Shown: positions 4,483 through 61,667 of the stretch, piece by piece | Layout: each line of letters begins with the position of its first letter | How positions within the stretch are numbered: position 1 is the stretch's first letter | Assembly (NCBI GenBank): GCA_022495995.1 | Contig: JAFEMH010007496.1 | Span: 23,524 to 87,523, forward strand | DNA: 64,000 bases | Source of the DNA: Adenophora triphylla var. japonica | Lineage: Eukaryota > Streptophyta > Magnoliopsida > Asterales > Campanulaceae | Direction of reading: 5' to 3' | Notes under the pieces: model-generated | What the model saw: only the letters and a program-made list of their open reading frames with translations | Database searches by the model: none | Told to the model about the DNA's origin: nothing | Program-made: the position numbers and the translations under genes

Positions 4483-5819
4483 TGAAATTACCCAGATTCA
4501 AGAGGCGCAGCAATTGCGCCCCGACATCTGGCATTTCGTTTTTTGCGTTGGTCGAGTGGAGGTGTCTCGCTGTATTTTTTGCTTTGTAGAGTCACCACGC
4601 CGTTTTGATTTAGCCCAAAACATTGAGAAAAGGCATCAGTTTAAAAACTGTTGTTGTGTGATGAGATTTTTGAGTTCGGAGGTCAGGTTACTCCTCGGGA
4701 AGAGAATATTAGAATATTAGAGCCCACCTGAGTCGTCTCGTAAAAACGAGTCTTTCGATACCCCTTCTTTCTTTAACTGTTGTGTGTGTGTGTATGCGCT
4801 TTTAAAAATGCATGATGTATCGGATGTCTACATTGTACACTACTTATTGAAATGTATTGAAATAGTATAGGAAGAAATCCTTACCAATGTTGGTTCGTGT
4901 CTGTCTTTCGCTGGAGAATAGTGTTTGAGGATGAAATAGTGTTTCGGGATAGACCGAAATTGCTTTGGGATGTGCCGGTAGTCTGCGGACAGAGCTTCGG
5001 CGTGCCTCGGGATTGTCAGGTGTGCACTCGGGCAGAGTTTCGACGTGCGTTGGGATCGCAGGGATCGTTGACTGGATTCGGGCAGAGGTTCGGCGTGCGT
5101 CGGGATCGTCGGTTGCGTTTGGGCAGAGTTTCGGCGTGCGTCGGGATCGTCGGTTGCGTTCGGACAGAGTTCCGGCGTGCGTCGGAATCGTCGGTTTGGC
5201 TCGAAAAGGGCCGGGACGCCTCGGGAGAGACCAGGCAAGGCTTCGGAGTACCACGAGGGGCCTCAAAATACCTCGAGAGTGCCTCGGGGCAGCACGGGAG
5301 CGTCTCGGGAGCGCTCGGTAGGGCTTCGGAGCACCGCAAGGGAGCTCGAAAGGCCCCGAAAGGAACTGAAAGGGACCGGGAGTGCCCCGAGGGATCTTAG
5401 AAGGACAGCCTGAAGGCTTAGGGAAAGAGGAGAAGAGGGAGGTGTAAAAAATGAGGGAGGGAGAGCCCTCTATTTATAGTAGAGGAAAAACTACAATAAG
5501 GTCCGTACGGACCTTCCATGAAATCCAGAAATTTGGTTTTTCCTGATTTGAGGGAATAATGTAGGCTTTAAGAGGATTTTGTAATAATTGTGTCTGGATG
5601 CAAAGAGGTCCGTACGGACCTTTTAGCATGCAAAGAGGTTCGTACGAACCTTCCATGCTTTTGTAATTGTGATGGCAAGCTAGTTCTCGTCGAGAGCTTT
5701 CCAACCATATATGGCACGTCTCAATCGGAGTTCGTATGATGGAGTTATGACCTCCGAAAGTTTGCCCTTGATTTTGTCGTATGCTTGGATGGAGAGCGGT
5801 CCAGATTGGGGTACTTACA
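4483..5819 (-). repeat. Element A 3' LTR
   Basis: This complete 1337-bp LTR starts TGTAAGTACCCC and ends TAATTTCA on the minus strand. It is highly similar throughout to 14522-15881. It holds the TATA box, three palindromes and a GC-rich minisatellite (about 5030-5200; 41-bp units with TTCGGCGTGCGTCGGGATC). Open frames of 100-170 codons on both strands result from that minisatellite. Confidence 0.9.
5471..5650 (-). promoter_or_regulatory. Element A 3' LTR promoter: TATA plus three palindromes
   Basis: The minus strand has TATAAATA at 5478-5471. GGTCCGTACGGACC lies upstream at 5500-5513, with further copies at 5607-5620 and (as GGTTCGTACGAACC) 5637-5650. The axis of the proximal palindrome is 28.5 bp from the first TATA base. 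The TATA is also enclosed by CCTCTA/TAGAGG arms. Promoter role is inferred from position in U3. Confidence 0.75.
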
Positions 5820-5836
5820 GAAGCCCCTCGGCGACG
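5820..5836 (-). other. Element A polypurine tract
   Basis: On the minus strand GCCGAGGGGCTTC abuts the TG of the 3' LTR. The same GCCGAGGGGCT core precedes the 3' LTR of element C, as expected for the plus-strand DNA primer. Confidence 0.65.
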
Positions 5837-5924
5837 TCACTTATGAAGGAAGTGGGGTCATCGATAAGATATGGGTCCTGATCTAGATCGCTTGCTGGGA
5901 GAGGATGTGATCGTGTAGTCTAGT

Positions 5925-7920: not shown

Positions 7921-8390
7921 GCTGGACAAGGAGAGGAGGGATGGCTCGTCTTCTTTTTCCTTCTTCGTTCTGACTTCTGCGGATGTCTTGGCGTATCCGG
8001 TCGAGGAAGGTGCTGAGTTCACTAAGAATGATGAGGTGGCTGGCGGAGGCGCCGTGATGTGGGAGTCTTTACCAGGCGGTGGTGTCGATGACTCAGAGTA
8101 GGACTCTTTTTTTTCTTTTCTGTGCATGTTAGAGAGGAGAGGCAACAAAATATTTGTATTTATTTACAATGTATTCACATGTAATGAACTCTTTTATTTT
8201 TGCTTTAGGGGTTGTTCCTACTCCCTTTTTTTATGTTCTGTGCATGTCGCACGAGCTTGAAATGTTTGTGGTTAGTGTATGGTGGCCGGAAATGGCTTTG
8301 GTAAGGCTTTTGAGCAGTTGGGGGCTGAAGCAGCTTTGACACTTTCTTGAGCGACGGCGGGAGTGATGTCTCCTGGGATGTGTTTGCTTT

Positions 8391-9450
8391 GTGAGTGATA
8401 GCCACTCTTTTCATGGTCAGCCCCCTCGGGATGTGTGTCGGCGCTTTGTCGAATGCGGTGGGCCACTACTGAGTGGGCGAGGACATCGTTCCTTTTGCTT
8501 TGGGGGAAACTTTCCATGGCATAGATCGCTCGGCGATGGGGGATCGGTTCATGCATGGGGGAAGCCCCTGCTTTTCTTGCATTATGGTGGAGAGAGAGAG
8601 AGATTTCAAGCTATGACAGTGCCTCTGACATCCTTCAGTCTGTGGACGTTTGCTCAGCGACCCCTTATCTTGCATATGGATCAGTCCGCTTGGGAAAGGT
8701 GGATGGTTTGACTTGGCACGCATCACCTCCGTTGGTGGGTTCCTCATTGGGGAATTGATACTAGGAGGGCCTGTCAGGAAGGTTCCTATGCTGTCAGAGT
8801 TCCGTGTTTGCCTTGGTCCTCTTTCTACGTTTCGTTGCTTGTTTCCTGGCAGTTCGGGATGAGGCAGGAGCCTTTGCTGGGCTGGGATGAGATTGCCAAT
8901 GTGGAGGTAGCTTCTTTCTGCATGACAGATCCAGATGCCTTTCTGTATTTTCTGAGGGTATGGAAGTATTCCGCTTTCTCTCCTGTGGTGCTCCTTAGAT
9001 GCCGAGAGAGTGTTGTCTTGACCACCGAGTACCTGGATTGGTATGAGTAGCAAATCGGGCAGACCCAAGTGGTTTTGGGGAGCAGGCGTGAAGCAATTCT
9101 GGGGCAAGATTGTTATCTCAGCTATAGCCTTAGGAGTGCAGAAGCCTGGTCTAACCCTCAGGATGTCATGGGAGACTCTTTGTTTGACTACGGGAATCGA
9201 GTTGACAGACTGGCGGGGAGAGGTCCCCTTTTGTAGACTCGGAGGGAGGAGATCCGAGCTGAGGCACAGGTAAACGATGCTGAGAGCGGCGGTTCGTTTG
9301 ACACGACTAGGAGGACTCACGATCTCGAATGAGGGAGACAGAACTTCGCTCATGTGGAATGAAAGAAGACTCATTGGGGACGAGGGAAGAAAGGAAAGAG
9401 TGACGAAGGGCCAAACGCGAGTAGCCTGGAATGACCTTCTGAAACACTGA
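8391..9450 (+). pseudogene. Element A antisense ORF relic (DUF7745/PMD-like C-terminal half)
   Basis: Plus-strand fragments run opposite to gag and match the antisense unit of element C at 27080-28060. GEDIVPFALGETFHGI (from about 8478) pairs with ARDVVPLILGETFHAL in C. The frame at about 8860-9050 (DEIANVEVASF, DPDAFLYFLRVWKYSAF, VLTTEYLDW) pairs with C's DDIATGVVAPV, DPSVFPFLSRAWRYDAF and VFTTTWYWIG. A lysine/arginine-rich tail follows at about 9300-9440. Stops and frameshifts break the frame, so it is not functional as it stands. Antisense ORFs between pol and the 3' LTR are a known Tat-lineage feature. The assignment to a DUF7745/PMD-like family is from memory of the motif pattern. Confidence 0.6.
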
Positions 9451-11460: not shown

Positions 11461-11501
11461 TGTATTGGGGCCGCGGGGGCGATTTAACTTTCCTTCTTCA
11501 A

Positions 11502-14519: not shown

Positions 14520-14521
14520 AC

Positions 14522-15881
14522 TGAAATTACCCGGATCCGAGAGGCACAGCGATTGCGTCCCGGCATCTGGCATTCCGTTTTTTGCGTTGGTCGAGTGGAT
14601 GTGTCTCGATGTGTTTTTTGCTTTGTAGAGTCTCCACGCCGTTTTGATTTAGCCCAAAACATTGAGAAAAGGCATCAGTTTAAAAACTGTTGTTGTGTGA
14701 TGAGATTTTTGAGTTCGGAGGTCAGGTTACTCCTCGGGAAGAGAATATTAGAATATTAGAGCTCACCCGAGTCGCCTCGTAAAAACGAGTCTTTCGGTAC
14801 CCCTTCTTTCTTTAACTGTTATGTGTGTGTGTATGCGCTTTTAAAAATGCATGCTGTATCGAATGTCTACATTGTACACTACGTATTGAAATGTATTGAA
14901 ATAGTATAGAAAGGAAGCCTTACCAATGTTGGTTCGTGTCTGTCTTCCGCTGGGGAATAGTGTTTGAGGATGGAATAGTATTCCGGGATAGACCGGAATT
15001 TCTTCAGGATGTGCCGGTGGTCTGCGGACAGAGCTTCGACGTGCCTCGGGATTGTCAGGTGTGCACTCGGGCAGAGTTTCGACGTGCGTTGGGATCGCAG
15101 GGATCGTTGACTGGATTCGGGCAGAGGTTTGGCGTGCGTTGGGATCGTCAGTTGCTTTCGGGCAGAGTTCTGGCGTGCGTCGGGATCGTCGATTGCGTTC
15201 GGGAAGAGTTCCGGCGTGCATCGGGATCATCGGTTGCGTTCGGGCAGAGTTTCGGCGTGCGTCGAAATCGTCGGTTTGGCTCGAAAAGGGCCGGGATGCC
15301 TCGGGATAGACCAGGCAAGGCTTCGAAGTACCACGAGGGGCCTCAGAATACCTCGAGAGTGCCTCGGGGCAGCGCGGGAGCATCTCGGGAGCGCTCGATA
15401 GGGCTTCGGAGCACCGCGAGGGAGCTCAGAAGGCCCCGGAAGAAACCGAAAGGGACCGGGAGTGCCCCGAGGGGTCTTAGAAGGGCAACCTGAAGGCTTA
15501 GGGAGAGAGAAAGGAGAAGAGGGAGGTGTGAAAAATGAGGGAGGGGGAGCCCTCTATTTATAGTAGAGGAAAAACTGCAAGAAGGTCCGTACGGACCTTC
15601 CATGAAATCCAAAAATTTGGTTTTTCCTGATTTGAGGGAATAATGTGGACTTTAAGAGGATTTTGTAATAATTGTGTCTGGATGCAAAGAGGTCCGTATG
15701 GACCTTTTAGCATGCAAAGAGGTCCGTACGGACCTTCCATACTTTTGTAATTGTGATGGCAAGCTAGTTCTCGTCGAGAGCTTTCCAACCATATATGGCA
15801 CGTCTTAATCGGAGTTCGTATGAAGGAGTTATGACCTCCGGAAGTTTGACCTTGATTTTGTCGTATGCTTGAATGGAGAGC
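14522..15881 (-). repeat. Element A 5' LTR, tip truncated by element B
   Basis: It matches 4483-5799 closely, then stops within GGAGAGC where element B's TGTCACGACC begins. The final U3 bases (GGTCCAGATT..TTACA in the other LTR) are missing. The GC-rich minisatellite is at about 15065-15275. Confidence 0.9.
15555..15734 (-). promoter_or_regulatory. Element A 5' LTR promoter: TATA plus three palindromes
   Basis: TATAAATA (15562-15555, minus) is preceded by GGTCCGTACGGACC at 15584-15597, a decayed GGTCCGTATGGACC at 15691-15704 and an intact copy at 15721-15734. The proximal axis-to-TATA distance is 28.5 bp, as in the other LTR. Confidence 0.75.
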
Positions 15882-17914
15882 TGTCACGACCCAAAATATA
15901 GGCATTATTTATGATGTGCATTTTATATTAATAGTTCCTTATTTAATTTATATGATATACTAGTCGTGTTAATAAATTATTTAGGAAAAGATAATTGAGA
16001 GAAAGTAAATTTTAATTCATTATGTGTAATGAGGTGCTTTGATGACAAAGTATGAAAACTAGGTGAATTTTTAAAATATGGTTTAACTTATTGAGGGGCA
16101 AAAATGTAAATAGGTGGTGTATATCATCTTTATGTGGGTGAAAGCCCCATATTATTTCTATTATCTTCTTCTCTGCAATTGAAGACTCCATTGTTGAACT
16201 AAGTCAAGTTTCCCTTTTTAAAATTCACCATAAATTATATCCTTACCCATTCTTCAAAGTAATTGCACCAAAATGATGAGTGGAGCTTGAGGATTTCATC
16301 TACCCAGCCAAGAACACTTTCCATTGTCATATTCATTTGAGGCAAGTTGTTATGTTTCCCTTCTATGCATGTTCATATAGATATGTTACAATTGATTGAA
16401 GTGTAATTGATATTTGTGAAATCTAGTCAAGTTAATTGTAGGGTTTGCTAATTTGGGTGTTTAGTAGAATTGGAAACTTTCATTGAATTGAAATGGGTAA
16501 ATGATTGTTTGGTGAAAATTGTAACATTCCTTTTGAAATTAAAGAGTTGGATTGTATTGGGTAAACTATAATGAAGAAATTAGGGAGTTTTGTAGTTTGG
16601 ATTGTAAACAATGGTGCCATCAAAGTGTTAGAACTTTTGGGTTTGAAGTCTGAATTTTTGGCTCACAATTCGTACCTGGAAACAGCATGCAGAGCGGCCG
16701 CGCTCCAGCTAAAGCGGTCGCGCTCATCAAAGGAAAATTGGCCAAAACTCTCTGCCACTGAGGGCGGCCGCGCTCCAGGCCACGGCGGTCGCGCTGGCCC
16801 CTGTTCCCAAACTTGTTTCCTAAACTATTCTTACTTAATTACTTAGACTATTTTAACCTCATAGCACACCTTAATTATAGTATAAGACAACAGTAACATT
16901 TTAATGCCGAAGATGCGTGGATTGAATCATGTATTGGTAGCCTTAGTGCTAAATATGGAGAATACTTTATTATGTTGCTATTTTATAAATGCTTTGGGTG
17001 GAGTATGTATCCCTACTTTGGATCATACATTATTTTGTTAAACAAATATGTTATTATTGTGTTTAACTAGTTAAAGTCCAGCTGGTACTTGGTTGTCAGG
17101 CAATGTTATGGAATTATAATGGCACCGAGCCAAGTTCATTATAATAAATACATTGGTAACCCAGATTTTACCCTCCATTGGCCATGGATGGGATTAGTGA
17201 ACTGGCATCTTCTTTATGGAGATGGTTATAGTTGCACTGGGGATACGACTGCGTGTCGGAGTCCCTATGATCTTGACTTGGTTATGGTTTCGGAATCGCT
17301 TCATCAACTGCTGTTGTTGCTCAGAGTTGGATGACCCTTGTATTTAAACCTTGGCTAGTATCCTTCTAAGTGTTAAATTAATGCACTTGGGTGATGTTAT
17401 AAGTTTATTATTCTTTGGTATTATAAAGTGTTAATTATATGAACTATGAATGCTTTATATGTAATGCATGTCATATTGTTGCATATATAATAGCTTGTTG
17501 AGATTTATCTCACTCCGTCCCTTTTAATATTTTAGACAGGAGCGAGCCAAGGGTATAGGTCCGGTTGAGACTCGAGGAGGACGCCAGTGTGGGTTGTTAT
17601 TTTGGGGTAAGAGTGCTAGTGGTTACATTATGTAAATGTAAACCGAGGGATAGTATACCCAATTAGGTTTGATTTGTAATCGTTAAGTTTTTGGTACCTT
17701 AAGTATTGTATATATTTGGGACTATGTTCCTAGTTTGTTATGGTTATAATTGTGCACTCTTTTATAAAACGTTCTAAACTTTTATTTAAGTTAAACAGGT
17801 TTTTATATTCATTATTTAGAAAGGATTCAAAGAAAAGATTTTTAATAAATTTGGCGTCTCCAGTTCGCGACTCGAATGTGTGGCCAAGTAGGTCCATGGA
17901 TCGGGGGCGTGACA
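15882..17914 (+). repeat. Element B 5' LTR
   Basis: It begins TGTCACGACCC and ends GGGGGCGTGACA, so the ends themselves form a short inverted repeat. At 16692-16795 four related GC-rich imperfect dyads occur: AGCGGCCGCGCT, AGCGGTCGCGCT, GGCGGCCGCGCT and GGCGGTCGCGCT. No TATA box lies at the spacing seen in the other LTRs. Confidence 0.85.
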
Positions 17915-19232: not shown

Positions 19233-20991
19233 TGTAACGATGTGTTGCCTTTTTCGCGGGAAAAATTCGATTTTTGCGTTTCTTTGAAAAACCAAATAAA
19301 ACCGGAAAAAACGGAGTCGCCACGCCATTTTAATTTTGAAGGGCAAAACTTTGAAAAAAGCCCGAGATCAGAGATTTAGGTTCGGAGGTCATGTTACGCG
19401 TCGGGAAGGACGTTAGTGTGCACCCGACGCGCCTCGTAAAAACGAGTCTTCCAAGCTGAAAATCATTTGTATGTGTGTGTGTGTGTGTGTTTTGGCCAAA
19501 ATAAGTTGAAACTTGAAAAAGTAAAAATTGGGATGTCTTTTTAAGACTTTAAACTGATCCCATGATTTTTTGGAGAATTTTTGGTTTGAGATTTGGTACT
19601 CAAAAAACCTTTTGAAGTTGAGAAGTCACTTCTGCCAGAAGGAAATGGCAGCAGACACCTGATTTTGAAATGGATTCAAGGGTCCTAAAACTTCATAATC
19701 TGGATGAACTCAGAGAATGAAAGTTTTTCTAGACTCCTTGAATAAACTTTGTGTGAAAGAAATTTCCATTTTGGAGAAGATTTGAGGGGTCAAAACCTTC
19801 TGGAAACCTCAGATATGAGATCTGGATTCCCAGAAGCTGATGAACTAGCCTCTGAAAGAAAAATTGAAAAGAGGAGTTTTACTCACCCAAAAAATAAGAT
19901 AAAAATATGTCTGGAAAGCTCTGGATGTTGGCTACAAAAAGTGTTTTGTAGTCAACACCAAATTCCAAGTTCATCTGTGTCCAAAAATTAAGACCATGGA
20001 CTGAGGTCTGAGAAAATTGCTACTGGACAGCAACTTCTCAAGAAAGAAAATATGATTTTAAGGGGGGTTTTGCATCCATGCTTGTCCCCATTTCCCTAGG
20101 TTTTGGTTAGTGATCACTAGACATTTTAGTGGTGAATCAACTATACCAAACCATCCTTGGGGTACATTAGGACTAAGCATTTCATTTGCTTGGGGAGGGG
20201 GATTTTACCCTTTGAAATCAAGATTTAGTGCTTGAAAATGGTTTTCTAGGGTTTTGAAAGTGCATTTTTGCAAGTAAACAAGAAAAGCTTTGAAAATAAT
20301 GTTGATCTTTGTAGAAGATCATCCATGGAGATGGTCTTCCATGGTGATCTTCTTAGATCTAGAGAAAGAAGATGAAAGAACTACATTTTGTAGTTTGAAG
20401 ATGCATGCATGGATGAGATTTAGGGTTAGGAAGAGGAGGGTTTACCAATCTTCCTTGTGTTCTTGAGTGTTTGGCTTGAGTGTATGAGTGTTTAGGGCTT
20501 TAATATGAGAGTGAGTGGATGAGTATGAGTTGGGAAAGATTGGAAAGAAAAAGGTGACAATTCTTGAGAATTCTCACTGTTTTCTCTCTATATTTCGCCA
20601 GAACTTCGTTGCTATTGTGTTCTTCCTCCCTTATTTTTGTGACTGGAGGGCTCAATTTATAGCCCTCCTGAAAATGCAAAGGTATCCGCGCGGACAAGGT
20701 CAGTAGGCGTGCACTGTTCATTAATTACAGCTCCAGCCTTAGACAGGAAGAATAAAAATTCAAAAAAACCAAATTAACAGCCAGTTTTTGTGTTTCCAGC
20801 CTTTCTATTTATGGTTTTATTCTTTTGTTTTGCTTTTTAAGATGCTTTTCTTGGTTTAACTTCATTTGGCAATGCCCATTCTACCCTCCCTTTGTTAGAA
20901 ATGTTAGGATAGTTAGGAATTGTTAGAAATGTTATAACTTTCGTTAATTTTATAACGAAAATTCTAACAAGCTCAAATTGGAGCACTTACA
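19233..20991 (-). repeat. Element C 3' LTR
   Basis: 1759 bp, TGTAAGTGCTCC to ATCGTTACA on the minus strand. It is close to identical to 36130-37890 except for a diverged patch upstream of the TATA (about 20669-20870). It contains a (GT)n run at 19470-19490. Confidence 0.95.
20645..20694 (-). promoter_or_regulatory. Element C 3' LTR TATA hairpin and palindrome
   Basis: TATAAATT (minus, 20661-20654) lies inside perfect GGAGGGCT/AGCCCTCC arms (20645-20652 and 20661-20668). Upstream is TCCGCGCGGA at 20685-20694, with the axis 28.5 bp from the first TATA base. Confidence 0.75.
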
Positions 20992-23028: not shown

Positions 23029-23067
23029 ATCCGCGCGGATAGGGATGGAAAGTCAGGGGTATTTAAT
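23029..23067 (+). promoter_or_regulatory. Putative promoter of the first antisense unit
   Basis: ATCCGCGCGGAT (23029-23040), the same palindrome as in C's LTR, is followed 19 bp later by TATTTAAT (23060-23067) on the plus strand. The next ATG-bearing unit starts at 23203. The arrangement mirrors the LTR promoter but in the opposite direction. Function is inferred. Confidence 0.5.
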
Positions 23068-26376: not shown

Positions 26377-26394
26377 CCCATCCGCGCGGATGGG
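26377..26394 (+). promoter_or_regulatory. 18-bp palindrome ahead of antisense unit 2
   Basis: CCCATCCGCGCGGATGGG is a perfect dyad containing the LTR core TCCGCGCGGA. It lies about 120 bp upstream of the ATG at 26517. No TATA box occurs at the LTR spacing here; the nearest AT-rich box is TTTAAAT at 26428. Confidence 0.45.
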
Positions 26395-26516
26395 GACTGA
26401 CATCGACCTTTGTCCTTTGATTTTTGCTTTAAATCTGGCTTTGCTTTATTTCAAATTCAAATATCTTCTTGACCTCCGGTCAAACGACCATTTTCGGGGA
26501 GGAAGAGAGAAAAACC

Positions 26517-28066
26517 ATGGAAAGCCTTAGAAAAGCTCCCTCAAAATTGTCCCAAGAGTCCCAAATGTCATTTTTCAACAAGTTCAAGGATTGGTCCCGG
26601 GAAATTATGCATGAGAGAAGGTCTTTCTTTGAAGAACGGTACAAGGTACGATGCTTGTGGTCTCTCAAAGAATTGATTCCGGATTATGACCTCTTAAGGG
26701 CTTCTTCTTCGTTTTGGGATACTAGAAGGCATGTCTTTTGCCTTTCCTTCAACGAGATTGTTCCGACTGTGGAAGAATTTCGGGCCTTGCTTGGAGGTCC
26801 GGAGGTGGAGGAGATAGCAATTCCTTTGTCCGGAGGAGCTTCTTTTGTTGACAAGTTGTGCAACCTTCTTCATCTTTCCCCGGAGGAAGCACGAGGCATG
26901 ATTCGCGGTCCCGACCATTTTGATATTTCCGGTCTTCCCGACAGATTTAGGGGCTTAGGCTTGGTGGATGACGCCTATTGGGATGCCTTTGCCCTTTGCA
27001 TGTTCGGCACTTTGTTCATGGTCTATTCCTTCGGGATTTGCCATCGATCTCTGTTGGATGTTGTTGTCGTCCATTGTCGCACAGAGCGAGAGATGTCGTT
27101 CCTTTGATTCTTGGGGAGACTTTTCATGCTCTCGGACAGTTAGCTACCGGACGGCGGTACATGCAGGGGCGGCCCGTTTCTCTTGACCACATGGGCGATG
27201 GAGCGTTTGGGGGTTCTTCGGGAAACCTCGATATGATCGGGCCTTGGACTTTTGCCGGGAGAGGTGTTGATGTAGATTTTGATGATCGGGGCTCGTGGGA
27301 GCGTTGGATGGCGGAGTCGCCGGCCAGAAGATATCGAGATGGTCGGTGCCTCATTGGCGGGTGGAGACTCGTAGAGTGCTTCGGGGACGGGTCCCGTGGT
27401 TATGCTTCGGGGCTTTCTCGATCCGGTTTTTATATTCCGGCTTTGGTCTGAGGCAGTTTGGCTTGGAGCGAGGTTCCTTTGGAGGGTTTTGATGATATAG
27501 CTACCGGGGTGGTGGCTCCTGTTTCCATGGATGATCCCTCGGTGTTTCCATTTCTTTCCCGAGCATGGAGGTATGATGCCTTTCCTCCTCGGGTCATTCT
27601 CGAGCGTCAGAGACCGGTGTTCACGACCACTTGGTACTGGATTGGTACGAGGGGCATGCAGGAGAGACTCGGGTGGCTATTTTGAGACGGCGTGAGGCCA
27701 TTATGGGTGCGGAGGACCGGCTGTTTACGAGAGGAGGAGGGCCGAGGCGAGGGCCAACCTCATGACGGGGAGCGGAGACGGCGCTGTGACCGATTATGAG
27801 GCTTACGTCAAGAGACGGGAGAGGAGGGCTCCTATGTTACCGGCTAGGTTACGGGAGATGAGGGATGACGCTAGGGCTACTAAGGCCCCGACAGAGGCCG
27901 GTTTGATAGACCTGTTCCTATACCCGAGCTTGGTAGGAGGAATACCGACATTTTTCCGGTTCAAAAGAGAAAGACTCGGAGGGGGAAGAAGAAGGGAGAG
28001 ACCGATGCAGTGGCTTGGAGTGACTCGAGGTTTCCAAGTATCCCTTTCTTGCCATGACAGAGACAC
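26517..28066 (+). pseudogene. Element C antisense unit 2: DUF7745/PMD-like protein
   Basis: The best frame starts with MESLRKAPSK and stays open to about 27083. It then continues in shifted frames at 27084-27449 and 27458-27685 and ends in a Lys/Arg-rich tail near 28050. Recognisable stretches are SSFWDTRRHVFCLSFNEIVP with TVEEFRALLGGP (about residues 60-95), DDAYWDAFALCMFGTLFMVY, DVVPLILGETFHALGQLATG, RSWERWM-like residues and AWRYDAFPPRV. The pattern (aromatic-WD, TxEE, then PxxLxxTxHxL) resembles the plant DUF7745/plant-mobile-domain group found as extra ORFs in Tat retrotransposons. Element A carries the same C-terminal half, so the protein was under selection in the family. Function is unknown. 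At least two frameshifts disable this copy. Confidence 0.65.
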
Positions 28067-36129: not shown

Positions 36130-37890
36130 TGTAACGATGTGTTGCCTTTTTCGCGGGAAAAATTCAATTTTTGCGTTTCTTTGAAAAACCAAATAAAACC
36201 GGAAAAAACGGAGTCGCCACGCCATTTTAATTTTGAAGGGCCAAAACTTTGAAAAAAGCCCGAGATCAGAGATTTAGGTTCGGAGGTCATGTTACGCGTC
36301 GGGAAGGACGTTAGTGTGCACTCCGACGCGCCTCGTAAAACGAGTCTTCCAAGCTGAAAATCATTTGTGTGTGTGTGTGTGTGTGTGTTTTGGCCAAAAT
36401 AAGTTGAAACTGGAAAAAGTAAAAATTGGGATGTCTTTTTAAGACTTTAAACTGATCCCATGATTTTTTGGAGAATTTTTGGTTTGAGATTTGGTACTCA
36501 AAAAACCTTTTGAAGTTGAGAAGTCACTTCTGCCAGAAGAAAATGGCAGCAGACACCTGATTTTGAAATAGATTCAAGGGTCCTAAAACTTCATAATCTG
36601 GATGAACTCAGAGAATGAAAGTTTCTCTAGACTCCTCGAATAAACTTTGTGTGAAATAAATTTCCATTTTGGAGAAGATTTGAGGGGTCAAAACCTTCTG
36701 GAAACCTCAGATATGAGATCTGGATTCCCAGAAGCTGATGAACTAGCCTCTGAAAGAAAAATTGAAAAGAGGAGTTTTACTCACCCAAAAAATAAGGTAA
36801 AAATATGTCTGGAAAGCTCTGGATGTTGGCTACAAAAAGTGTTTTGTAGTCAACACCAAATTCCAAGTTCATCTGTGTCCAAAAATTAAGACCATGGACT
36901 GAGGTCTGAGAAATTTGCTACTGGACAGCAACTTCTCAAGAAAGAAAATATGATTTTAAGGGGGTTTTGCATCCATGCTTGTCCCCATTTCCCTAGGTTT
37001 TGGTTAGTGATCACTAGACATTTTAGTGGTGAATCAACTATACCAAACCATCCTTGGGGTACATTAGGACTAAGCATTTCATTTGCTTGGGGAGGGGGAT
37101 TTTACCCTTTGAAATCAAGATTTAGTGCTTGAAAATGGTTTTTTAGGGTTTTTGAAAGTGCATTTTTGCAAGTAAACAAGAAAAGCTTTGAAAATAATGT
37201 TGATCTTTGTAGAAGATCATCCATGGAGATGGTCTTCCATGGTGATCTTCTTAGATCTAGAGAAAGAAGATGAAAGAACTACATTTTGTAGTTTGAAGAT
37301 GCATGCATGGATGAGATTTAGGATTAGGAAGAAGAGGGTTTACCAATCTTCCTTGTGTTCTTGAGTGTTTGGCTTGAGTGTATGAGTGTTTAGGGCTTTA
37401 ATATGAGAGTGAGTGGATGAGTATGAGTTGGGAAAGATTGGAAAGAAAAAGGTGACAATTCTTGAGAATTCTCACTGTTTTCTCTCTATATTTCGCCGTA
37501 ACTTCGTTGCTATTGTGTTCTTCCTCCTTATTTCGTGGATCGGAGGGCTCAATTTATAGCCCTCCCGAAAATACAAACATGTCCGCGCGGATGGATCCAA
37601 ATCGCGTGCACCTTTGTTCATTAATTCTTTGCTTCGGGCTTTGGACACAAGGAATAATCTTTTTCAAAATTCAAATTGACCAAAATTATGTTTCCAAAGA
37701 TTGCTATATTTGGTTTTCTTCATTTGTTTTTCTTTTTGAGATTCTTTTTAAGGTTTAACCTTAAATAACAATGCCCATTTTACCCTTACTTTGTTAGAAA
37801 TGTTAGGATAGTTAGGAATTGTTGGAAATGTTATAACTTTCGTTAATTTTCTAACGAAAATTCTAACAAGCTCAAATTGGAGCACTTACA
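36130..37890 (-). repeat. Element C 5' LTR
   Basis: 1761 bp with the same TGTAAGTGCTCC start and ATCGTTACA end as the 3' LTR. It is nearly identical to it outside 37566-37760, where the sequence is only loosely alignable. A (GT)n run is at 36367-36388. Confidence 0.95.
37542..37591 (-). promoter_or_regulatory. Element C 5' LTR TATA hairpin and palindrome
   Basis: TATAAATT (37558-37551, minus) within GGAGGGCT/AGCCCTCC arms, and TCCGCGCGGA at 37582-37591. The axis is 28.5 bp from the TATA, exactly as in the other LTR, even though the surrounding patch has diverged. Confidence 0.75.
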
Positions 37891-39125: not shown

Positions 39126-40715
39126 TGAATGTGCGCTCGCCCGAAAAAATTATAAAAAAGGGAGTCGCCACGCCATGCTTTGAGAGGTGCACTTTGAAAA
39201 ACCTTTTTGAAAGAGAAAGGGTTCGGGGGTCAGGTTACGTGTTGGGAAGAACCGAGAGTTCACCCAACACGCCTCGTCCGTAGACGAGTCTTTCTAATTT
39301 AGACATCCAAATAATTCAAAAAACAACGTGCAAACAATGATAATATGCAAGTGCGATAAACATGAATTTTATTGAATAGGCAAGATCATTACAACTTGTA
39401 GACCAATTGTCTGGGAGGCCACATCCCTTTACATCAATAAGAACAGACTACAAAAGAGATCAGGTCCTCTGCAAAGGATCATCTATGTCGCGTGACACAG
39501 GACTCCCTTGTCCAAATATGTCGCGTGACATCAATGGTCACCTTGCAGAGGCTCACAACTAACAAATCACACAACCTTCATATGAACACAAAACTACAAT
39601 TAAAACCAGATCTAGGCACTAACAACATAAACATATTACTGAATATGAAAATAGCCAACTAAAACGAATTACAACTGAAACAATGGTCCCTGCAGATGGT
39701 CATGACATGTCGCGTGACACAGGACTCCTCATGTCCAAATGTGTCGCGTGACATAAGGTTACCATCTGCAGGTACCTCAAAAACTGAGATGCAGATCCAA
39801 CAGATAAACAACAATTATATCAGAACCAATAAGAACAATATGAATTAGATACGAATTGATCAAAGGAGTGTGGATATGGGAGATCCACACTCCCTTGACA
39901 TCCAAATTGCCAATCTAAGTAGATCACATCATAAGCAAGCAATTGGACTCAAAGCACAAACGATTTAAACAGAGAGATTGCATTTGCCACTTGATAATCT
40001 GAGGCAGATGGAGCCTGATTATCAAGTGGAGAAGAAGAGAGAACAATTAAGCAAGTAGATAAGAGAGAGAGAGAGAGAGAGAGAAGGAGAGACTAGTTAC
40101 CCTTGTAGTCCTCAACTCTTACACCAAGTTAGGTGTAGGAGTCTTCAATTCAACTTCTGAATGGAGATCTGAGCACGAACTGAGGGCTGAATTGGAGGAT
40201 CTGAAGTGTATGGTGAAGAAGGAGAGGAAATGGGTTGAAGAGAGGTGAGAGGTGAGGGAATTAGTGAGGGAATTGGTGAGGAAGGAAGAGAGAGAGAGTT
40301 TCTGAATGAATTTTGGCAGAGTGACTTTGGGAGGTTCAAATTCGGATCCAAAACTGAGAGGGGTAGGGTCTTATTTATAGCTGCAGTCCATGGTAGCCTT
40401 GTGTCGCACGACGTAACGTAACCACTTTCCATGCCTCGACTTGTCGCGTGACACAAGGTGACCATAACCGTTTTTGGCGCCAAATCTGGTTCTGGAACCT
40501 TCTTGGATAATTTCTAAAAGGTCCAAAACAGATTTATTCCTTTTAGATCCCTTGGCCCGAGCAAAGTACAAAAAAGTACTTCCTTCACGTGAAACTTATG
40601 AAATGTTTCCGAAAGTCTCGGGATGGACCGAGAATTTACCAAAACGCCCCTAAATGCAATTTTATCATATTAAAATGCATCTGGAAAGGTCGCGAATTGG
40701 ATTGGCGTACTTACA
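39126..40715 (-). repeat. Element D 5' LTR
   Basis: 1590 bp, starting TGTAAGTACGCC and ending GCACATTCA on the minus strand. It contains six TGTCGCGTGACA-type motifs, two nested hairpins at 39466-39551 and 39689-39772, and a (GA)n run at 40065-40085. The second LTR is outside the window. Confidence 0.85.
40374..40453 (-). promoter_or_regulatory. Element D LTR TATA and palindromes
   Basis: TATAAATA (40381-40374, minus), with TGTCGCACGACG at 40404-40415 (axis 28.5 bp away) and TGTCGCGTGACA at 40442-40453. Both are one or two changes from the perfect dyad TGTCGCGCGACA, and most changes are C-to-T type. Confidence 0.7.
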
Positions 40716-47127: not shown

Positions 47128-47567
47128 TGAACACAGACTTAAATCAATTTGGGATTAATCGATTTAAGTGAGAAAATAAAGAATTATAGTTCAGATTGAG
47201 GTGAGAAAAGAATTAGAAGAAAATACAGAGTATGGGATGAGAGAGAAACGAGAGATTTGGAGAGAGAGTTGGGAATCTTTGGTAAATTTCATTATGCCAT
47301 GAAAATGGCGTTAGACAGAGCAATAAGAGAGAGAAAGCACGTGAGACTCAACGGCCTAATCTCTCACTACAATACGACCCCGTTTTAAGTAACGGTAAAT
47401 CCTTCTAGACACAGACTTAAACGACAACGTTCTATTTAAAGATAAAACGCATACCCTAATGTCCGTTAACGGACTTATTGACACTTAGACTAAGGAACGA
47501 CGTCGCATCCCCCCACATTCAAACATAACGGTCATCCCTAATTGGAAAATAAGCCCTAAAACATTAC
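47128..47567 (-). repeat. Element G 3' LTR
   Basis: TGTAATGTTTTAGGGC to TCTGTGTTCA on the minus strand. Compared with the 5' LTR it lacks four bases of a GA run and has an extra two bases near 47489. GTCCGTTAACGGAC (47461-47474) is a perfect dyad lying 20 bp upstream of TTTAAATA (47440-47433, minus). Confidence 0.95.
47433..47474 (-). promoter_or_regulatory. Element G 3' LTR TATA-like box and palindrome
   Basis: TTTAAATA with GTCCGTTAACGGAC upstream; the axis-to-box distance is 27.5 bp. The 5' LTR copy has one substitution in the palindrome (GTCCGTTGACGGAC, 53034-53047) and the same spacing. Confidence 0.6.
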
Positions 47568-52696: not shown

Positions 52697-53139
52697 TGAA
52701 CACAGACTTAAATCAATTTGGGATTAATCGATTTAAGTGAGAAAATAAAGAATTATAGTTCAGATTGAGGTGAGAAAAGAATTAGAAGAAAATACAGAGT
52801 ATGGGATGAGAGAGAAACGAGAGATTTGGAGAGAGAGAGAGTTGGGAATCTTTGGTAAATTTCATTATGCCATGAAAATGGCGTTAGACAGAGCAATAAG
52901 AGAGAGAAAGCACGTGAGACTCAACGGCCTAATCTCTCACTACAATACGACCCCGTTTTAAGTAACGGTAAATCCTTCTAGACACAGACTTAAACGACAA
53001 CGTTCTATTTAAAGATAAAACGCATACCCTAATGTCCGTTGACGGACTTATTGACACTTACTAAGGAACGACGTCGCATCCCCCCACATTCAAACATAAC
53101 GGTCATCCCTAATTGGAAAATAAGCCCTAAAACATTACA
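52697..53139 (-). repeat. Element G 5' LTR
   Basis: 443 bp, nearly identical to 47128-47567 (a 4-bp GA indel, a 2-bp indel and one substitution noted). This implies recent insertion. Promoter elements are TTTAAATA (53013-53006) and GTCCGTTGACGGAC (53034-53047). Confidence 0.95.
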
Positions 53140-53600: not shown

Positions 53601-53649
53601 GTTTGCTGTTAGGGGTTAGGGATTGACCAATTATGGTTTTTGTTTTTTA

Positions 53650-56153: not shown

Positions 56154-58024
56154 ATGGAAGCGTTCATTGATCCCGGCCTATCGATACATCTGTTTCCGAC
56201 CCGCCTACGCAGCACCGTAGGAGCTAGGTATATTTGGTCCGGTGGCCGGTTTCTAGTCCCCTCGTTTTTCGTCATGGTGCCACCTTGCCGCCCGTATTAG
56301 CTCTGTCATATTATTGAGACCGCGAGTGTGGATTTAGTGGAGTGCACTACATAGGCCTGGATACGATTTATTTTGCATTCTTTGAAGGCCTTGATCGAGA
56401 GATGGCGTCCGGAGACCCATATGTTCCATCTCCTTGGTGAGATGACGATCACCCTACGGGATATCGGCATGATTTGCGGGTTGCCGATTGATGGGGATGT
56501 CACATCGATGATGGGTTTCCGGTACATATGGCGCGGCGGGCTGAGTGTCGGGAGTATTTAGGGGCCGTCCCCGGAGACGGAGATATAGATGGGAGCTTGA
56601 TCTGAAGCTCAGATGGATTACCGTACGTTTCCCACGCTTTAGTGACCTCGATGATGATATCTTGCTCCGAGAGATTGTGGATCGGCACGTACGGGCTTAT
56701 ATCTTGCTTGCCTTGGGTTCTACGATCATGCCCGATCGTACGAACAACAAGGTTAAGCTATGTTATCTCCCGCCGCTTAGGGATGTTTCTAGGGTCGTGG
56801 GAGTACAGTTGGGGAGTGCGGCGCTTGCTTTCCTGTATCGAGAGTTATGTAGTGCGGCGGACCCTCACACGACAGTGCGGAGGATTTCTCAACGTTCTAC
56901 AGGTATTTTATTTCATTTTAATGTTCATTATGTTTTTAAGTTTTATTTCAAATTTGCGGCATTATTACTTAGTTTTTGATATACATTTATTTCATATAGA
57001 TCTGGGCTTGGGAGAGGTTGACATGTGTGAGGCCGCAGATCCGTTATCGCCTCGGAGACCCGGGACTACGTCATCATGCCCCTGATGCATGTATGCATAT
57101 ATCATACTTTATTTTCTCGTCGTTAATGTTTTTATTTTTTGAACAAAATCTTATAATTATTTTGTTTATGAAATTTCAGGTGGGCCTTGAGCTTCGCTTG
57201 ATCTCGAGAGAGGTTACTGCACATAGCCTGCGAGGCTATCGGGATCACCGGCTCTACCGAACGAGGGTCACGTGGTGTGGCGGCCTTATGAGGGGAGACC
57301 CGCTCCGTCTACGCACCGAGGGGAGGAGATATGGTTGGCGAAGGTCCCTCTCATATGCTTTGAGAGGGTCGAGTGGCATCTCGCCCGATCGCGTGATGAG
57401 GCGGTTTGGCTCGAGACGCTTTGTCCCGCACCGTTCGACACCGGCCTCGGAGTTGCACCGTTCGATCGGCGGGGAAGGCCTACGGTGAGATGGGGTGAGC
57501 ACCATCGCCCACTTGTTACACTATGGGGACAGCACCACGAGAGGTTGGTTTCCGGGGTGTTCGGCTTCCACGATATGACCTACACCGACCCATATATGGT
57601 ATGGTATAGGGACATAACGTGTAGGTTTGTGCGGCAGCTCACTCACGTAGAGGTGGATGGATACCAGCTGTATGCCCGCCATGTAGAGTTTATGGTAAGT
57701 TTTTACATTTTTAAAGTTTTTTTTTTCTAATATTTTTTTAAGAAAACATCAATTATTAACTTATGTCTCTCGTTCTTATATATATTTTTGATATAAAAAC
57801 AGTGTAGACCCTTCGCCGCCGCATGTCGCCAATGAGAGGGATGAGCATCCCCACCAAGCCGAAATGCGGGAGATTGTGACACACGGGTTCGGGGAGTTAG
57901 GGAGCTCCACCGCCTTCGCCCGCCGCACCTCCCCCACCGGTAGATCGCGTACGGGGACAACCTCGACAACGTCGGCGACGTCGTGGACAAAGCGTAACCA
58001 CCACCCTGCATGGATTTGCACGAT

Positions 58025-58059
<35 letters not shown>

Positions 58060-58489
58060 TCGGCGCAGACCTGCACCGATACATCTTATGATCGGTTGTC
58101 ACGATCGCGGCCACTATGATTTTGAGCGTTGGAGCGGGGTTTCGGGGGGCCTGGGCCCAGGGGTGCGGAGGAGTGGGTGGGGGGGTGGGGCGATGGGAGG
58201 GTGGTGGGGGGTGGCAGGGGGTGGCGGGGGTGTGGCGTGGGGGTGGGCGGGGGTGGCGGTGGGAGTGCCCCGGGCGGACCCTTCCCCTGGACCATCCACT
58301 ATGGGCTTCGGCGCTTATACGAGTGAAAGTGGGTTGAGGACTCCTTTATCACATGCACGGTTCCATGGTTTCGTCGATCCGGCTCAGATGACCCCTGAAC
58401 AAGAGCTTCAGGAACAAATGCTTAGAAGAGGGTCTCGGCTCCGGAATCCGCCTAATCCCTACACCCCGTCTTTCTATGATAATAGGTAG
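56154..58489 (+). pseudogene. Plant mobile domain (PMD/MAIN-like) gene, decayed
   Basis: The opening MEAFIDPGLSIHLFPTRLRS ends in a stop at about 56300. After it come the PMD hallmarks: ALIERWRPETHMFHLLGEMT, ITLRDIGMICGLPIDG, DLDDDILLREIVDRHVRAYI, GSAALAFLYRELCSAADPHT, GGFLNVLQ then IWAWERL, PLICFERVEWHLARSRDEAV, PFDTG and VWYRDITCRF. GT-AG introns fit at about 56901-57000, 57089-57180 and 57693-57801. The tail has an (EP)n stretch at 58022-58060, a GC-rich low-complexity run and the ending LRNPPNPYTPSFYDNR. At least two frameshifts and a stop disable it. PMD proteins occur as host regulators of silencing and as passengers or transposase partners in Mutator-like and gypsy elements. The nearby MULE suggests the latter. 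Confidence 0.8.
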
Positions 58490-58986
58490 AGAGTTCACTT
58501 TTGTTTTTGTTATTATTACGTAATGAAACTTTGTTGTATTGGTTTAGTTTTTATTTGAATGTTTTTTATTTGTATTGAACTGTACTATTAGTTTACTTTT
58601 TATTTGAATGTTTTTTATTTGTATTGAAATTTTGTAACTTTTTCTTAGTAGTTTAGCTTTATATTTGATGTGAATGTAATTTTCCAATTCTTAAAAATGA
58701 TTTTAGTTATTTTAATGAATATTTAAAAAATTATAATTGATGATATTTATTAGATTAGGGAGTAATAAAAGAAAAGTTTATTTTCCATTTAAGTTTTAAG
58801 GTTCAATTTATGTTTAGCATAATTCCAAAAAAAAATGTTCAAATGTGCTAGTGTGTAATAGAATGTGGAGAAGTCAAAAAATTGTATTTATTGGGCCAAA
58901 ATTGGAGTGGCCGCCCTTGTTCTTCGGCCAGCTTTGGTGGGCGCCCAAGTTCTTTGAAATGCATCAGTGAGTTTCGATTTTCACTA
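58490..58986. other. AT-rich interval between PMD gene and MULE
   Basis: Contains a duplicated TTTTATTTGAATGTTTTTTATTTGTATTGAA unit (about 58549-58583 and 58597-58630, described by position). No coding motif. Confidence 0.5.
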
Positions 58987-59040
58987 AACTCGCTACACGG
59001 TGTAGCGAGTATAGTGAAAATCGCTTCACGGTGTAGCTGA
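58987..59040. promoter_or_regulatory. Further palindromes between PMD and MULE
   Basis: ACTCGCTACACGGTGTAGCG (58988-59007) keeps the dyad of the upstream cluster with a CGG centre. ATCGCTTCACGGTGTAGCTG (59020-59039) is a decayed copy. Confidence 0.65.
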
Positions 59041-59353
59041 TTATAAATGTACATTTCCATTCCTTGTATTCCAAAGATAAGTTTTCAGTAAAAGGAGCGC
59101 CCGCTCCCACGTGGCGAAGCGTCCGCTCCCAAGCCGCCCGTAATGTAATATGTACCTTTTTTTTGTAATTATGACAAACATAAATTAAAACTTAAAACTT
59201 AAAACTTAATTAAAATAAAACTGAAACTGAAAAATTACATTCAACTCAAATATAAATTACATTGGACTTTTCAAGTTTAATGAAAACGACATAAAATAAA
59301 ACCGAAACCGAATCCAATTCAAGCCAAACATAAATTACATTAAAAATATACTT
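59041..59353. other. Spacer 3' of the MULE transposase
   Basis: GC-rich GAGCGCCCGCTCCC and GCGTCCGCTCCC motifs repeat at 59097-59133, followed by an AT-rich tract with an AAACTTAAAACTTAAAACTT run. No gene. Confidence 0.4.
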
Positions 59354-60269
59354 CTACTCCCTGAGGTTCGGGCATCTACGATGATTGTGCCCTTCCCGAT
59401 GGCATGATGAACACATACTCTTCCGTTTATACGCTTGAAAGTCCATAGAATTACGAAAGCGTCTTGATCTAGGTCGTCCTGGACTTCGCGAACGTCGAAG
59501 TAGGGGATTAGGGAAGAAACTAGGCACCAAACCATCCACGCCCCAATAGTCCTCATGCTCGATTGGTTCGAATGTTCCCTTCCATGTCTTGTAGTATTCC
59601 CCAACGGTGTAATATTCGAGAAACGAAATCTCGACCATCAATATTTTGTGCGTAACAACAAGCAAGGAGATGGGAACAAGGCATGCGATAGGCAACCCAT
59701 TTACCACATGTGCAGGTGCGCTCATTAAGTCGGACAATCTGTATATTTCCTCCGTGATCACCCTGACGTGCTGTTGTCACTTGATACACCCCCATTTCGT
59801 GATTGTTGAACCTCCCGGCGTGATGTGTTGCCGCTTTTACGGTGTTCTTCAAGTAGTGATAAGCGACTTTCGTCTTGAATTGGTGTCGGGGATTGATGTT
59901 AGGGTTATCGGGATTACCTCCTAAGGCATTGATTGAAAATCCATGCCTTACTTGAAAGTACTCCACGCAACGATAGAAGGCGGTTTCAACAATTCTTTGT
60001 GATTGGCATCCCACGAGCTCCCTTCATCACACCATTGAAAACCTCAGACATGTTGGTAGTCATGATGCCATACCTGTAACCACCATCGTGTGCCAATGTC
60101 CATTTTCTAGCATCCAAATGTTGAAACCATGCAATTGCCTCGGGCTTAATTCCACGGATACTCTCTAAGATAGATTTCAATTTTCTATCTTGAGTTGCTC
60201 TACCCGCTCTCCAGAACAGATACTTCAACCCTTCCCCTCTATACTTTTCCAAGAAATTTGCTCGCATAT
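59354..60269 (-). pseudogene. Mutator-like (MULE) transposase, C-terminal half
   Basis: From 60269 the minus strand reads MRANFLEKYRGEGLKYLFWR, RKWTLAHDGGYRYGIMTTNM and SEVFNGVMKGARGMPI, the end of a MULE transposase core. Then come IVETAFYRCVEYF and a SWIM zinc finger CTCGKWVAYRMPCSH. After a frameshift, SFLEYYTVGEYYKTWKGTFE and a terminal CCHC knuckle CSSCHREGHNHRRC precede the stop. The N-terminal half with the first catalytic acids is displaced because element E inserted at 60270. At least two frameshifts are present. It lies convergent to the PMD pseudogene. Confidence 0.85.
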
Positions 60270-61667
60270 TGTAAGTACCCCAATCTGGATCACACCCTTT
60301 CCAACACACGGGAAGCACCGCAGACTCATCAACGCAGTCTCGACGACCCCTCTCACTCAAAACCCTCTCTAAACCCCCAGCCAAACCAAGGGAGGAGCCT
60401 TTCTGGGATAAAAAGGGATAAAAGGACCTTTCGGGAATTTTCAGGAAAGTGGGAAAACAATATTGGTCCGTACGGACCTCTTTGTTGTCATAATTACTGA
60501 ATCTCCTTAAAGTCCACAATATTCCCTCAAATCCAGGGAAAATGATTACTCCCTGCAGAGTTGGTCCGTACGGACCTCTTTGCATGCAAGATGGTCCGTA
60601 CGGACCTTATTGCTCAGGGGACACCATAATTGCAAATATTCCTCCATCATCACAGATTCCCTCAAATCGAGGAAAACCAAAATACTGGATTACCAAGGAG
60701 GTCCGTACGGACCTCTTTGCACCTAATCTGGCACTATAAATAGAGGGCTCCCCCTCCTCATTTTACACACCTCCCACTTCTCTCTTCCTCCCTAAGCCTT
60801 CGGCTTCCCCTCTAAGTCCTTTCGAGGCATTCCCGGCCCCTTTCGGATCCTTCCGAGGCCTTAGAGCCCCTCGTGGTGCTCAAAGCCTCCCGAGCGCTCC
60901 CGAGACGCTCCGCGGCGCCCGAGGCACTCTCGAGGTACTCGAGGCCCCTCGTGGTACTCAGGAGGCCTTGCACAGTCTTTCCACGGTGTCCGGCTCTTTC
61001 CAGGAGTCAAGCCGGCGATCCCAGGCCACGCCGAAACTGCCGAGTGACTCCCTGCCACCACAACGCACGCCGAACCTGCGCGAGTGATCCACGATCCCCA
61101 CGCACGCCGAACCTGCGCGAGCGCGGCCTACAACCTCAACTCACGCCAGAAACTGCGTCGCGGAACCAATAGGTCCCTCCCAGAAGCAATCCCGATCCAT
61201 GCTGGAGCGCTACTCCGGACCTCAAACACTATTCCCCGGCGGAAGACAGACACGAACCAACATTGGTAAGGCTTCCTTCCTACACTATTTCAATACATTT
61301 CCATACATAAGCATACAATGTGAGACATCCAAATCTGACATGCATTTTTAAAAGCACACACACACACACACAACATTTAAAGGATATTAGGGGTATCAGA
61401 AAGACTCGTTTTACGAGGCTACTCGGGTGAGCTCTAATATTCGATATTCTCTTCCGAGGAGTCATCGACCTCAGAACTCAAAATCTCATCACACAAAAAA
61501 CGAGTTTAAAATTATCTTTAAAGCGGTGCCCTTTTTCAATGTTTTGGGCTTAATAAAAACGGCGTGGCGACTCTACAAATGCGAAAACAAAGCGGCGAGA
61601 CTAAACCGCTCCAGCGAAAGATGCCCGGATGCAGGATGCGAAGCCTTCTCGGATCCGGGTAATTTCG
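60270..61667 (+). repeat. Element E 5' LTR
   Basis: About 1398 bp, from TGTAAGTACCCCAATC to GGGTAATTTCG. The final dinucleotide is CG rather than the CA seen in A. It is more diverged from A's LTRs than these are from each other. It contains a (CA)n run at 61355-61372. Confidence 0.85.
60465..60742 (+). promoter_or_regulatory. Element E LTR promoter: four palindromes and TATA
   Basis: GGTCCGTACGGACC is perfect at 60465-60478, 60563-60576, 60593-60606 and 60700-60713. TATAAATA starts at 60735, 28.5 bp from the last axis. All four copies are intact although the LTR as a whole has diverged from A. Confidence 0.8.

Follow-up and report, generated by a model that had tools for sequence, protein, structure and literature searches.

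Repeated palindromic motifs (RM), whose clusters define CpG islands, have been described in the long terminal repeats (LTRs) of Sireviruses, which belong to Ty1/copia, and were called Sirevirus-specific (passages of Bousios et al., 2010, PMC2829016). Antisense open reading frames (aORFs) lie between pol and the 3' LTR of Retand elements and have been proposed to play DNA-binding regulatory roles (passages of Vicient, 2025, PMC11963269). Here we describe a CpG-containing dyad, referred to as the box, that precedes the TATA box in LTRs of Ty3/gypsy retrotransposons, apparently of the Tat type, in a stretch of 64,000 nt from the genome of Adenophora triphylla var. japonica (the window). The box is found in families A, C, D and E, and a palindrome with another core stands in the LTRs of a chromovirus, G.

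As far as RM are characterized in the passages of PMC2829016, the boxes resemble them in being dyad-symmetric (imperfectly in the D type), element-specific, and present in multiple copies in U3 upstream of the TATA box. In both cases, extra copies are found upstream of an additional gene, ENV in Sireviruses and an antisense open reading frame (ORF) here. Unlike RM, the boxes reside in Ty3/gypsy Tat elements and not in copia elements, and the primer-binding site (PBS) is not TATCAGAGC. The CGG..CCG order of RM contrasts with CCG..CGG in A, C, and E and TCG..CGA in D, while the at least eight copies per element contrast with three per LTR in A, four in E, and one per LTR plus two internal copies in C. 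The nearly fixed distance of 28.5 bp to the TATA box and the TTG partner of the A, E, and C types also set the boxes apart. This comparison suggests that the box is the Ty3/gypsy counterpart of the palindromic U3 boxes already described in Sireviruses.

As in Retand, the region between pol and the 3' LTR of element C contains tandem repeats together with an antisense ORF (26517-27107, + strand). Unlike Retand aORFs, this ORF has a weak match to DUF7745 and TRP28 was not detected, and the passages of Vicient (2025) link no promoter palindrome to aORFs; "TATA" is never used in that survey, where one cited title is the only place with "palindrom". The latter word is also absent from the passages of the Neumann survey (PMC6317226). 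The boxes share with the VANC motif arrays of VANDAL Mutator-like elements (MULEs) the character of short family-specific motifs that turn over with the element family (passages of PMC5735166). Unlike those dense same-orientation arrays, they are dyads positioned relative to TATA, and "palindrom" is absent from the text of PMC5735166. In the literature searched (titles, abstract starts, and passages, with subscription papers outside), we found no description of such a box in Tat elements.

Position of the box relative to the TATA box

The preliminary description of the window claimed eight family-specific palindromes at a fixed distance from the TATA box in LTRs of unrelated retrotransposons. 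We read all eight sites directly in the window sequence and measured distances from the palindrome axis to the first T of TATA. The two TATA-proximal sites of A, the two of C, and that of E are indeed perfect dyads with the axis exactly 28.5 bp from the first T of CTATAAAT (Table 1). For G, the claim holds at G1, which is perfect at 27.5 bp from TTTAAATAG, but G2 has one central break. The D site does have its axis at 28.5 bp, but its true place is 40402-40413 (axis 40407.5) and not 40404-40415, and it forms four of six pairs. Perfect palindromes are thus found at six of the eight sites. The D box had been read as a decayed TGTCGCGCGACA, which is doubtful, because TGTCACGCGACA is what all six other D-type copies (38.8-40.5 kb) read, in one and the same orientation; a perfect TGTCGCGCGACA does exist, however, at 944. 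Further copies of their own box in U3 of A and E, as well as two internal copies in family C, had been overlooked; within the window, the A and E boxes are found only in LTRs.

Several other symmetric structures were observed in the window. In family D, TGTCACGCGACA copies are paired, by eye, within longer inverted repeats, forming compound palindromes of ∼85 bp (39463-39760 and 40380-40480), one of which is the TATA-proximal region. At 470-960 of the window there is a cluster of long perfect palindromes, GAGAAACGCGTTTCTC, TTCTCGGATATCCGAGAA, CTTCTGGATATCCAGAAG, and TTGTCGCGCGACAA; directly after the last of these comes AAGTCGAG, which also follows one of the D-type copies. The TATA box of C is framed by the inverted repeat GGAGGGC/GCCCTCC (20630-20680 and 37530-37580), and that of A by CCTCTA/TAGAGG (5455-5500); E, D, and G have no TATA-framing inverted repeat of at least 5 bp.

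TATA sites were then taken with a fixed ("strict") expression, blind to the boxes, which misses TTTAAATAG of G, known from the preliminary description. Six of the eight strict sites in the window are LTR promoters, and all six carry the claimed dyad (imperfect in D); the remaining two do not. As a caution, the non-LTR TATA at 52232 has five of six pairs at 29.5 bp. The concentration of palindromes in U3 is beyond chance: 11 of the 18 CpG-containing perfect palindromes of at least 12 bp, a threshold that leaves out the 10-bp boxes of C, lie in the U3 sequence preceding eight TATA boxes (TTTAAATAG of G included), 2.4 kb in all. When dyad scores were stacked with a tolerance of ±1 bp, the observed score was reached in 0/1000 shuffles for A+C+D+G, A+D+G, and C+D+G, and in 11/1000 for D+G; with no tolerance, it was reached in 29/2000 shuffles for A+C+D+G and 806/2000 for A+D+G.

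In the host genome (2.48 Gb), we sampled 25 coordinate-picked stretches of 10 kb (250 kb), 20 of them evenly spaced on one contig and five on other contigs. They contain 34 strict TATA sites, 11 of which belong to one tandem array (L107); window and sample together have 42. An enrichment of palindromes ∼28 bp upstream of TATA, the check set by the preliminary description, was not seen, as the 24 non-redundant sites of the sample show no peak at 28.5 bp. The dyad score there (six pairs) is 0.319 against a mean of 0.266 (standard deviation 0.041) and is exceeded at 21.5 bp, and we reject a general rule for TATA promoters.

The part that generalizes is the core YCG-NN-CGR in one lineage, imperfect dyads included. 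In the window and sample, the 9-mer TGGCGACTC lies within 2.5 kb downstream of nine of the 42 strict sites, and the core is centred 28.5 or 29.5 bp upstream in all nine. Among the other strict sites, it is present in 2/33, namely A1 (the 3' LTR) and L102, which are themselves members of the same families, and in none of the 11 TATA sites of the L107 array; the background is 138 occurrences of YCGNNCGR per 250 kb. Genome-wide, the pattern TCCGNNCGGA-N22..26-CTATAAAT has 25,029 matches and no control matches, and with the spacer relaxed to N8..38 there are 35,203 (17,542+17,661), versus 21 (13+8) for the reversed control pattern. Among the first 100 places listed, which lie on the first contigs, are related by descent, and comprise 67 distinct strings, the distance is 28.5 bp in 71, 24.5 in 11, 27.5 in eight, 29.5 in five, 25.5 in four, and 23.5 in one. 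In viral contigs, 27 stretches match the box 14-mer, in no case is TATAAA or TATATA present near 28.5 bp, and these contigs encode no relatives of the A gag or G gag-RT frames. A contig scan for the box-TATA pattern elsewhere gave 62 prokaryote stretches, at or below chance by our own estimate, and this candidate was rejected.

Lineage of the elements and conservation of the box

The elements are not all unrelated. A, C, D, and E share the LTR start TGTAAGT, in at least one copy of each, and the PBS type. The PBS TGGCGACTC[CT]GCTGGGGAC directly follows the A, C, and D LTRs, reading TGGCGACTCCGCTGGGGAC in A and C and TGGCGACTCTGCTGGGGAC in D, while E has the degenerate form TAGGCGACTCCGTGGGGA at the expected place. 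A PBS for a tRNA other than Met is a trait of the Tat lineage. The PBS TGGCGACTCYGCTGGGGAC, read for A, C, and D and degenerate in E, may correspond to tRNA-Arg; the 250 kb host sample yielded no tRNA genes for a check. Moreover, A can be aligned with E for more than 1 kb, and A and C have common stretches at the LTR start and in the internal region near the 5' LTR. In eight loci fetched by the box-TATA pattern, which fixes pairs 2-5, TGTAAGT upstream and the 9-mer TGGCGACTC downstream are present in 8/8, and the full PBS in 5/8. The 9-mer was rejected as the PBS itself, since a second copy often lies within the LTR, 45-180 bp before the PBS (L091, L095-L097, L112, and the C2 and D LTRs of the window), and is therefore used only as a lineage marker.

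Behind the RNase H of the C pol relatives in L104, L112, and L120, 71-73% identical in DNA, there is in every case a second one of the RVT_3 type. In L120 a reverse transcriptase domain lies upstream of both, and in L104 only, an integrase zinc domain with a match under the cut-off lies after them. Taken together, RVT_1, RT_RNaseH, the extra RNase H, and the sub-cut-off integrase zinc domain follow the gypsy order. An additional RNase H between the RNase H and integrase domains is a mark of Ogre/Retand (passages of PMC6317226); none was seen within the window, where the ORFs are decayed. Judging from these features, A, C, D, and E form one Ty3/gypsy Tat-type lineage, the extra RNase H being seen in relatives. 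Therefore, only G is independent, a chromovirus with a chromodomain, a different core (CCG-4-CGG), and a different spacing; four or five independent origins of the box are rejected. In another Tat-type relative, L106, we observed G-patch matches at 1051-2424 (below the cut-off, in a frame with an aspartyl protease match) and at 8123-9331 (above the cut-off).

Identity between the two C LTRs is 97-100% per 100 columns apart from a ∼260-bp U3 block up to the TATA box (57/92 to 83/99), and their flanks (CCAAT/ATAAG) show no target-site duplication. This points to a mosaic U3, formed via gene conversion or recombination between elements. Exchange of U3 between subfamilies is known from tobacco Tnt1A, Tnt1B, and Tnt1C. 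As in Tnt1, the regulatory block of U3 differs and the rest of the LTR is nearly identical; unlike in Tnt1, the dyad core is kept within the divergent block.

The box is conserved against diverged surroundings. Between C1 and C2, the 10-bp core is identical at 10/10 positions versus 7/16 in the 8+8 flanking bases (p 0.004). The three box copies of A2 and E agree at 41/42 positions versus 86/137 elsewhere (p 1e-6), and those of A1 and E at 40/42 versus 86/137 (p 1e-5). A TTG starting 18 bp before TATA, which was not a selection criterion, is identical in 14/14 distinct box-selected promoters of A, E, and C types, while most neighbouring columns have identities of 0.2-0.5 and the upstream columns average 41% pairwise identity.

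The idea that the dyad is constrained while its letters turn over stands in part: symmetry is partly kept and the spacing is mostly fixed for the TATA-proximal copy, but this does not hold across unrelated families. In 21 promoters, pair 5 is T-A (16) or G-C (5) and always complementary, although the pattern that retrieved eight of these promoters fixes this pair; pair 4 is complementary in 19/21. Pair 6 is near chance (9/21; 2387/10,000 shuffles), and pair 7 is weak (10/21; 284/10,000). After collapse to six clusters, pair 5 is complementary in 6/6 (reached in 471/10,000 shuffles), and pairs 1, 4, and 5 jointly in 13/18 (478/10,000). The centre dinucleotides among the first 100 places listed are CG (59), TA (24), TC (9), GC (6), and CA (2); 58 of the 67 distinct strings have a self-complementary centre versus 30.7 expected when centre bases are re-dealt, and the observed number is reached in 0/20,000 shuffles. 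Dyad-preserving turnover of arms and centre is thus supported but not proven, and purifying constraint on the box appears clearer than such turnover. SPL/copper GTAC sites were rejected as a candidate because GTAC is present only in TA-centred boxes.

Antisense side of family C and other features of the window

The internal family-C copies at 23029 and 26380 sit within a common 25-bp element. The latter is upstream of the antisense ORF 26517-27107, while an antisense gene is less clear for the former. A 24-bp antisense-side composite occurs 603 times in the host genome and never in controls, and the places listed include ten pairs ∼3.3-3.4 kb apart, matching the 3.35 kb of the window. The copy at 26380 is kept at 12/12 positions in L099, which has 88% identity with C along 6 kb, with 64/96 identities in the surrounding 100 columns. 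The ratio of nonsynonymous to synonymous substitution rates (dN/dS) of the antisense ORF relative to L099 is 0.16 over 194 codons (one pair), indicating purifying selection, and the ORF therefore most likely represents a real antisense gene. Its only domain match, DUF7745, is under the curated cut-off, and its structure prediction is uninformative (single-sequence model, predicted local distance difference test, pLDDT, of 38.7). TRP28 (PF04195) was absent among the ORFs scanned, where decay or splicing could hide it. On its own antisense strand, element A matches part of the C antisense region at 31%.

Two other regions of the window were recorded. Fragments of a plant mobile domain (PMD) on the + strand and a SWIM zinc finger ORF on the - strand at 56545-60606 are perhaps a decayed MULE with a PMD gene. 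In the pol region of the chromovirus G, a 376-bp tandem duplication (99%) at 49450-50201 lies where two long frames overlap.

Table 1. Coordinates of LTRs, box copies, and associated features in the window. Axis distances are in bp from the first T of TATA.
Feature	Position	Strand	Basis
LTR A1, 3' LTR of element A	4482..5801	-	self-BLAST pair, ends read
A1 TATA-proximal box GGTCCGTACGGACC, axis 28.5, first T 5478	5500..5513	-	direct reading
A1 distal box copy, axis 135.5	5607..5620	-	
A1 distal box copy GGTTCGTACGAACC, axis 165.5, with two dyad-symmetric changes	5637..5650	-	
LTR A2, 5' LTR of element A, with PBS TGGCGACTCCGCTGGGGAC after it	14521..15885	-	self-BLAST, reading
A2 TATA-proximal box, axis 28.5, first T 15562	15584..15597	-	
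A2 distal box copy GGTCCGTATGGACC (+ strand reading), one break	15691..15704	-	
A2 distal box copy, perfect	15721..15734	-	
LTR C1	19233..20991	-	self-BLAST
C1 box TCCGCGCGGA, axis 28.5, first T 20661	20685..20694	-	
Internal family-C box copy	23029..23040	+	
Internal family-C box just 5' of antisense ORF; dyad spans 18 bp, 26377-26394	26380..26391	+	
ORF antisense to element C, weak DUF7745 match under curated cut-off, dN/dS 0.16 vs L099 relative	26517..27107	+	
LTR C2, followed by PBS TGGCGACTCCGCTGGGGAC	36130..37890	-	self-BLAST, reading
C2 box TCCGCGCGGA, axis 28.5, first T 37558	37582..37591	-	
Family D LTR, TGTAAGT start, followed by PBS TGGCGACTCTGCTGGGGAC, without partner LTR in the window	39126..40715	-	
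D box CGTCGTGCGACA, 4/6 pairs, axis 28.5, first T 40379	40402..40413	-	
D-type repeat TGTCACGCGACA; five more identical copies at 39742, 39708, 39519, 39486, 38799	40442..40453	-	
Palindrome GTCCGTTAACGGAC in G1 LTR (chromovirus), TATA TTTAAATAG with first T 47440, axis 27.5	47461..47474	-	
G2 palindrome copy, one central break	53034..53047	-	
E LTR distal box copy, axis 263.5 (by arithmetic)	60465..60478	+	
E LTR distal box copy, axis 165.5	60563..60576	+	
E LTR distal box copy, axis 135.5	60593..60606	+	
E LTR TATA-proximal box, axis 28.5, first T 60735	60700..60713	+	

Possible function of the box

The position of the box, its conservation, its restriction to one lineage in the sample, its partly dyad-preserving changes, and its copy number are observed; from them we infer binding of a factor, its dimeric state, activation, and the host origin of the factor. 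In particular, the box may well be a proximal-promoter site of the Tat lineage (TGTAAGT start, TGGCGACTC-type PBS) for a two-fold symmetric DNA-binding factor, a reading about which our confidence and our doubt are equally balanced. A two-fold site at a nearly fixed TATA distance fits a dimeric activator in the proximal promoter. The core recognized would be YCG-NN-CGR, a pair of CpGs with two bases between them, centred in most cases 28.5 bp before TATA, with the box axis ∼32 bp, or by arithmetic about three helical turns, from the TATA centre, and with TTG as a partner 18 bp before TATA in many A-, E-, and C-type promoters. A dimeric factor, most likely a host transcription factor, would bind the box and place or activate the TATA complex, and the additional U3 copies of A and E would provide more binding sites. 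Since in family C the box also stands before antisense genes, sense and antisense transcription would both be driven by a single factor. A host factor is preferred because the chromovirus G has the same GTCCG half-site.

A number of observations weigh against this promoter reading. As the core was defined after the families had been seen, the split of TATA sites by the 9-mer is descriptive, and the full PBS stands behind the 9-mer in only four of the nine cases, the 9-mer being a second intra-LTR copy or a variant in the others. At the looser TATAAAT (124 sites), the core is found in 10/20 sites with the 9-mer downstream and 3/104 without it; six of the ten misses are in an LTR whose other TATA has the core, or just beside such a TATA, but three TATAAAT sites in L103 and one at 59251 have no core nearby. 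The spacing is not strictly fixed (23.5-29.5 bp seen, mostly 28.5), and many copies share ancestry, so the counts are not independent. The centre pair is complementary in 15/21 promoters and 2/6 collapsed clusters, being broken in D, L100 (two), L101, L102, and L114, and pair 4 is broken in two; the covariation after collapse to six clusters is only suggestive. TTG is absent from D and L101, and is found at -18 in only 37 of the 67 distinct strings listed. On the antisense side, the putative TATA at 26428 is not conserved in L099, and was rejected as the TATA box of the antisense gene.

The main rival, an element-encoded factor, arises from the antisense box copies. The box would then be the target of a protein such as the DUF7745-like antisense product, in an autoregulatory or anti-silencing loop with a VANC-like logic, which we consider unlikely, yet worth keeping in view. 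The family-C box stands both in the LTR promoter and before antisense genes, the antisense ORF is under purifying selection, and A has the antisense-strand match to part of the C antisense region. Retand antisense proteins were proposed as DNA-binding regulators (passages of PMC11963269), and VANC targets are short, repeated, family-specific motifs (passages of PMC5735166). Against such a factor, the A and E boxes are confined to LTRs within the window, G shares the half-site GTCCG with no extra-gene domain found in its two frames, and for the putative DNA-binding protein the pLDDT is low, the DUF7745 match is under the cut-off, and TRP28 was not detected in the ORFs scanned. A more specific version, which seems to us improbable, is a self-regulatory Tat circuit. 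A dimeric protein encoded by the antisense genes would recognize a family-specific CpG dyad at two places, upstream of the LTR TATA box and upstream of those antisense genes, and would co-evolve with it. If so, changes of arms and centre would be coordinated between the two sides, with the YCG-NN-CGR frame and the TATA distance held constant, and retroviral Tax/HBZ-like or VANC-like logic would operate in plant gypsy elements at tens of thousands of sites per genome.

Alternatively, the CpG-rich dyad could be a symmetric methylation switch or a small interfering RNA hotspot in U3, retained because hypomethylated copies transpose. CG to TG/CA changes do occur in some box copies, and the palindrome-rich U3 regions of maize Sireviruses are highly variable hotspots of small RNA mapping (passages of PMC5311732); two CpGs in fixed register are present in 21/21 promoters, but this is true by definition of that set. 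Methylation alone would need neither the T-A/G-C symmetry of the arms, nor TTG at -18, nor the near-fixed TATA distance, and we find this explanation quite improbable. Finally, the box could be a functionless relic of descent, U3 exchange, and gene conversion in one abundant lineage, and sharing by descent would explain the common distance given that A, C, D, and E are one lineage and C has a mosaic U3, but this is very doubtful, as TTG is kept in all distinct promoters examined (box-selected) against poorly conserved upstream columns, the box is kept against diverged flanks in C1/C2 and A/E, and the centres and pair 5 differ between families and are mostly still complementary.

Tat elements make up a large share of many large plant genomes. 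The ∼35,000 TATA-adjacent boxes of a single genome, with few distinct symmetric variants, amount to a set of natural mutants with which the factor could be identified and the co-evolution of a regulator and its target tested. With a counterpart in another superfamily, palindromic U3 boxes may be a solution that plant LTR promoters or antisense genes have reached more than once.

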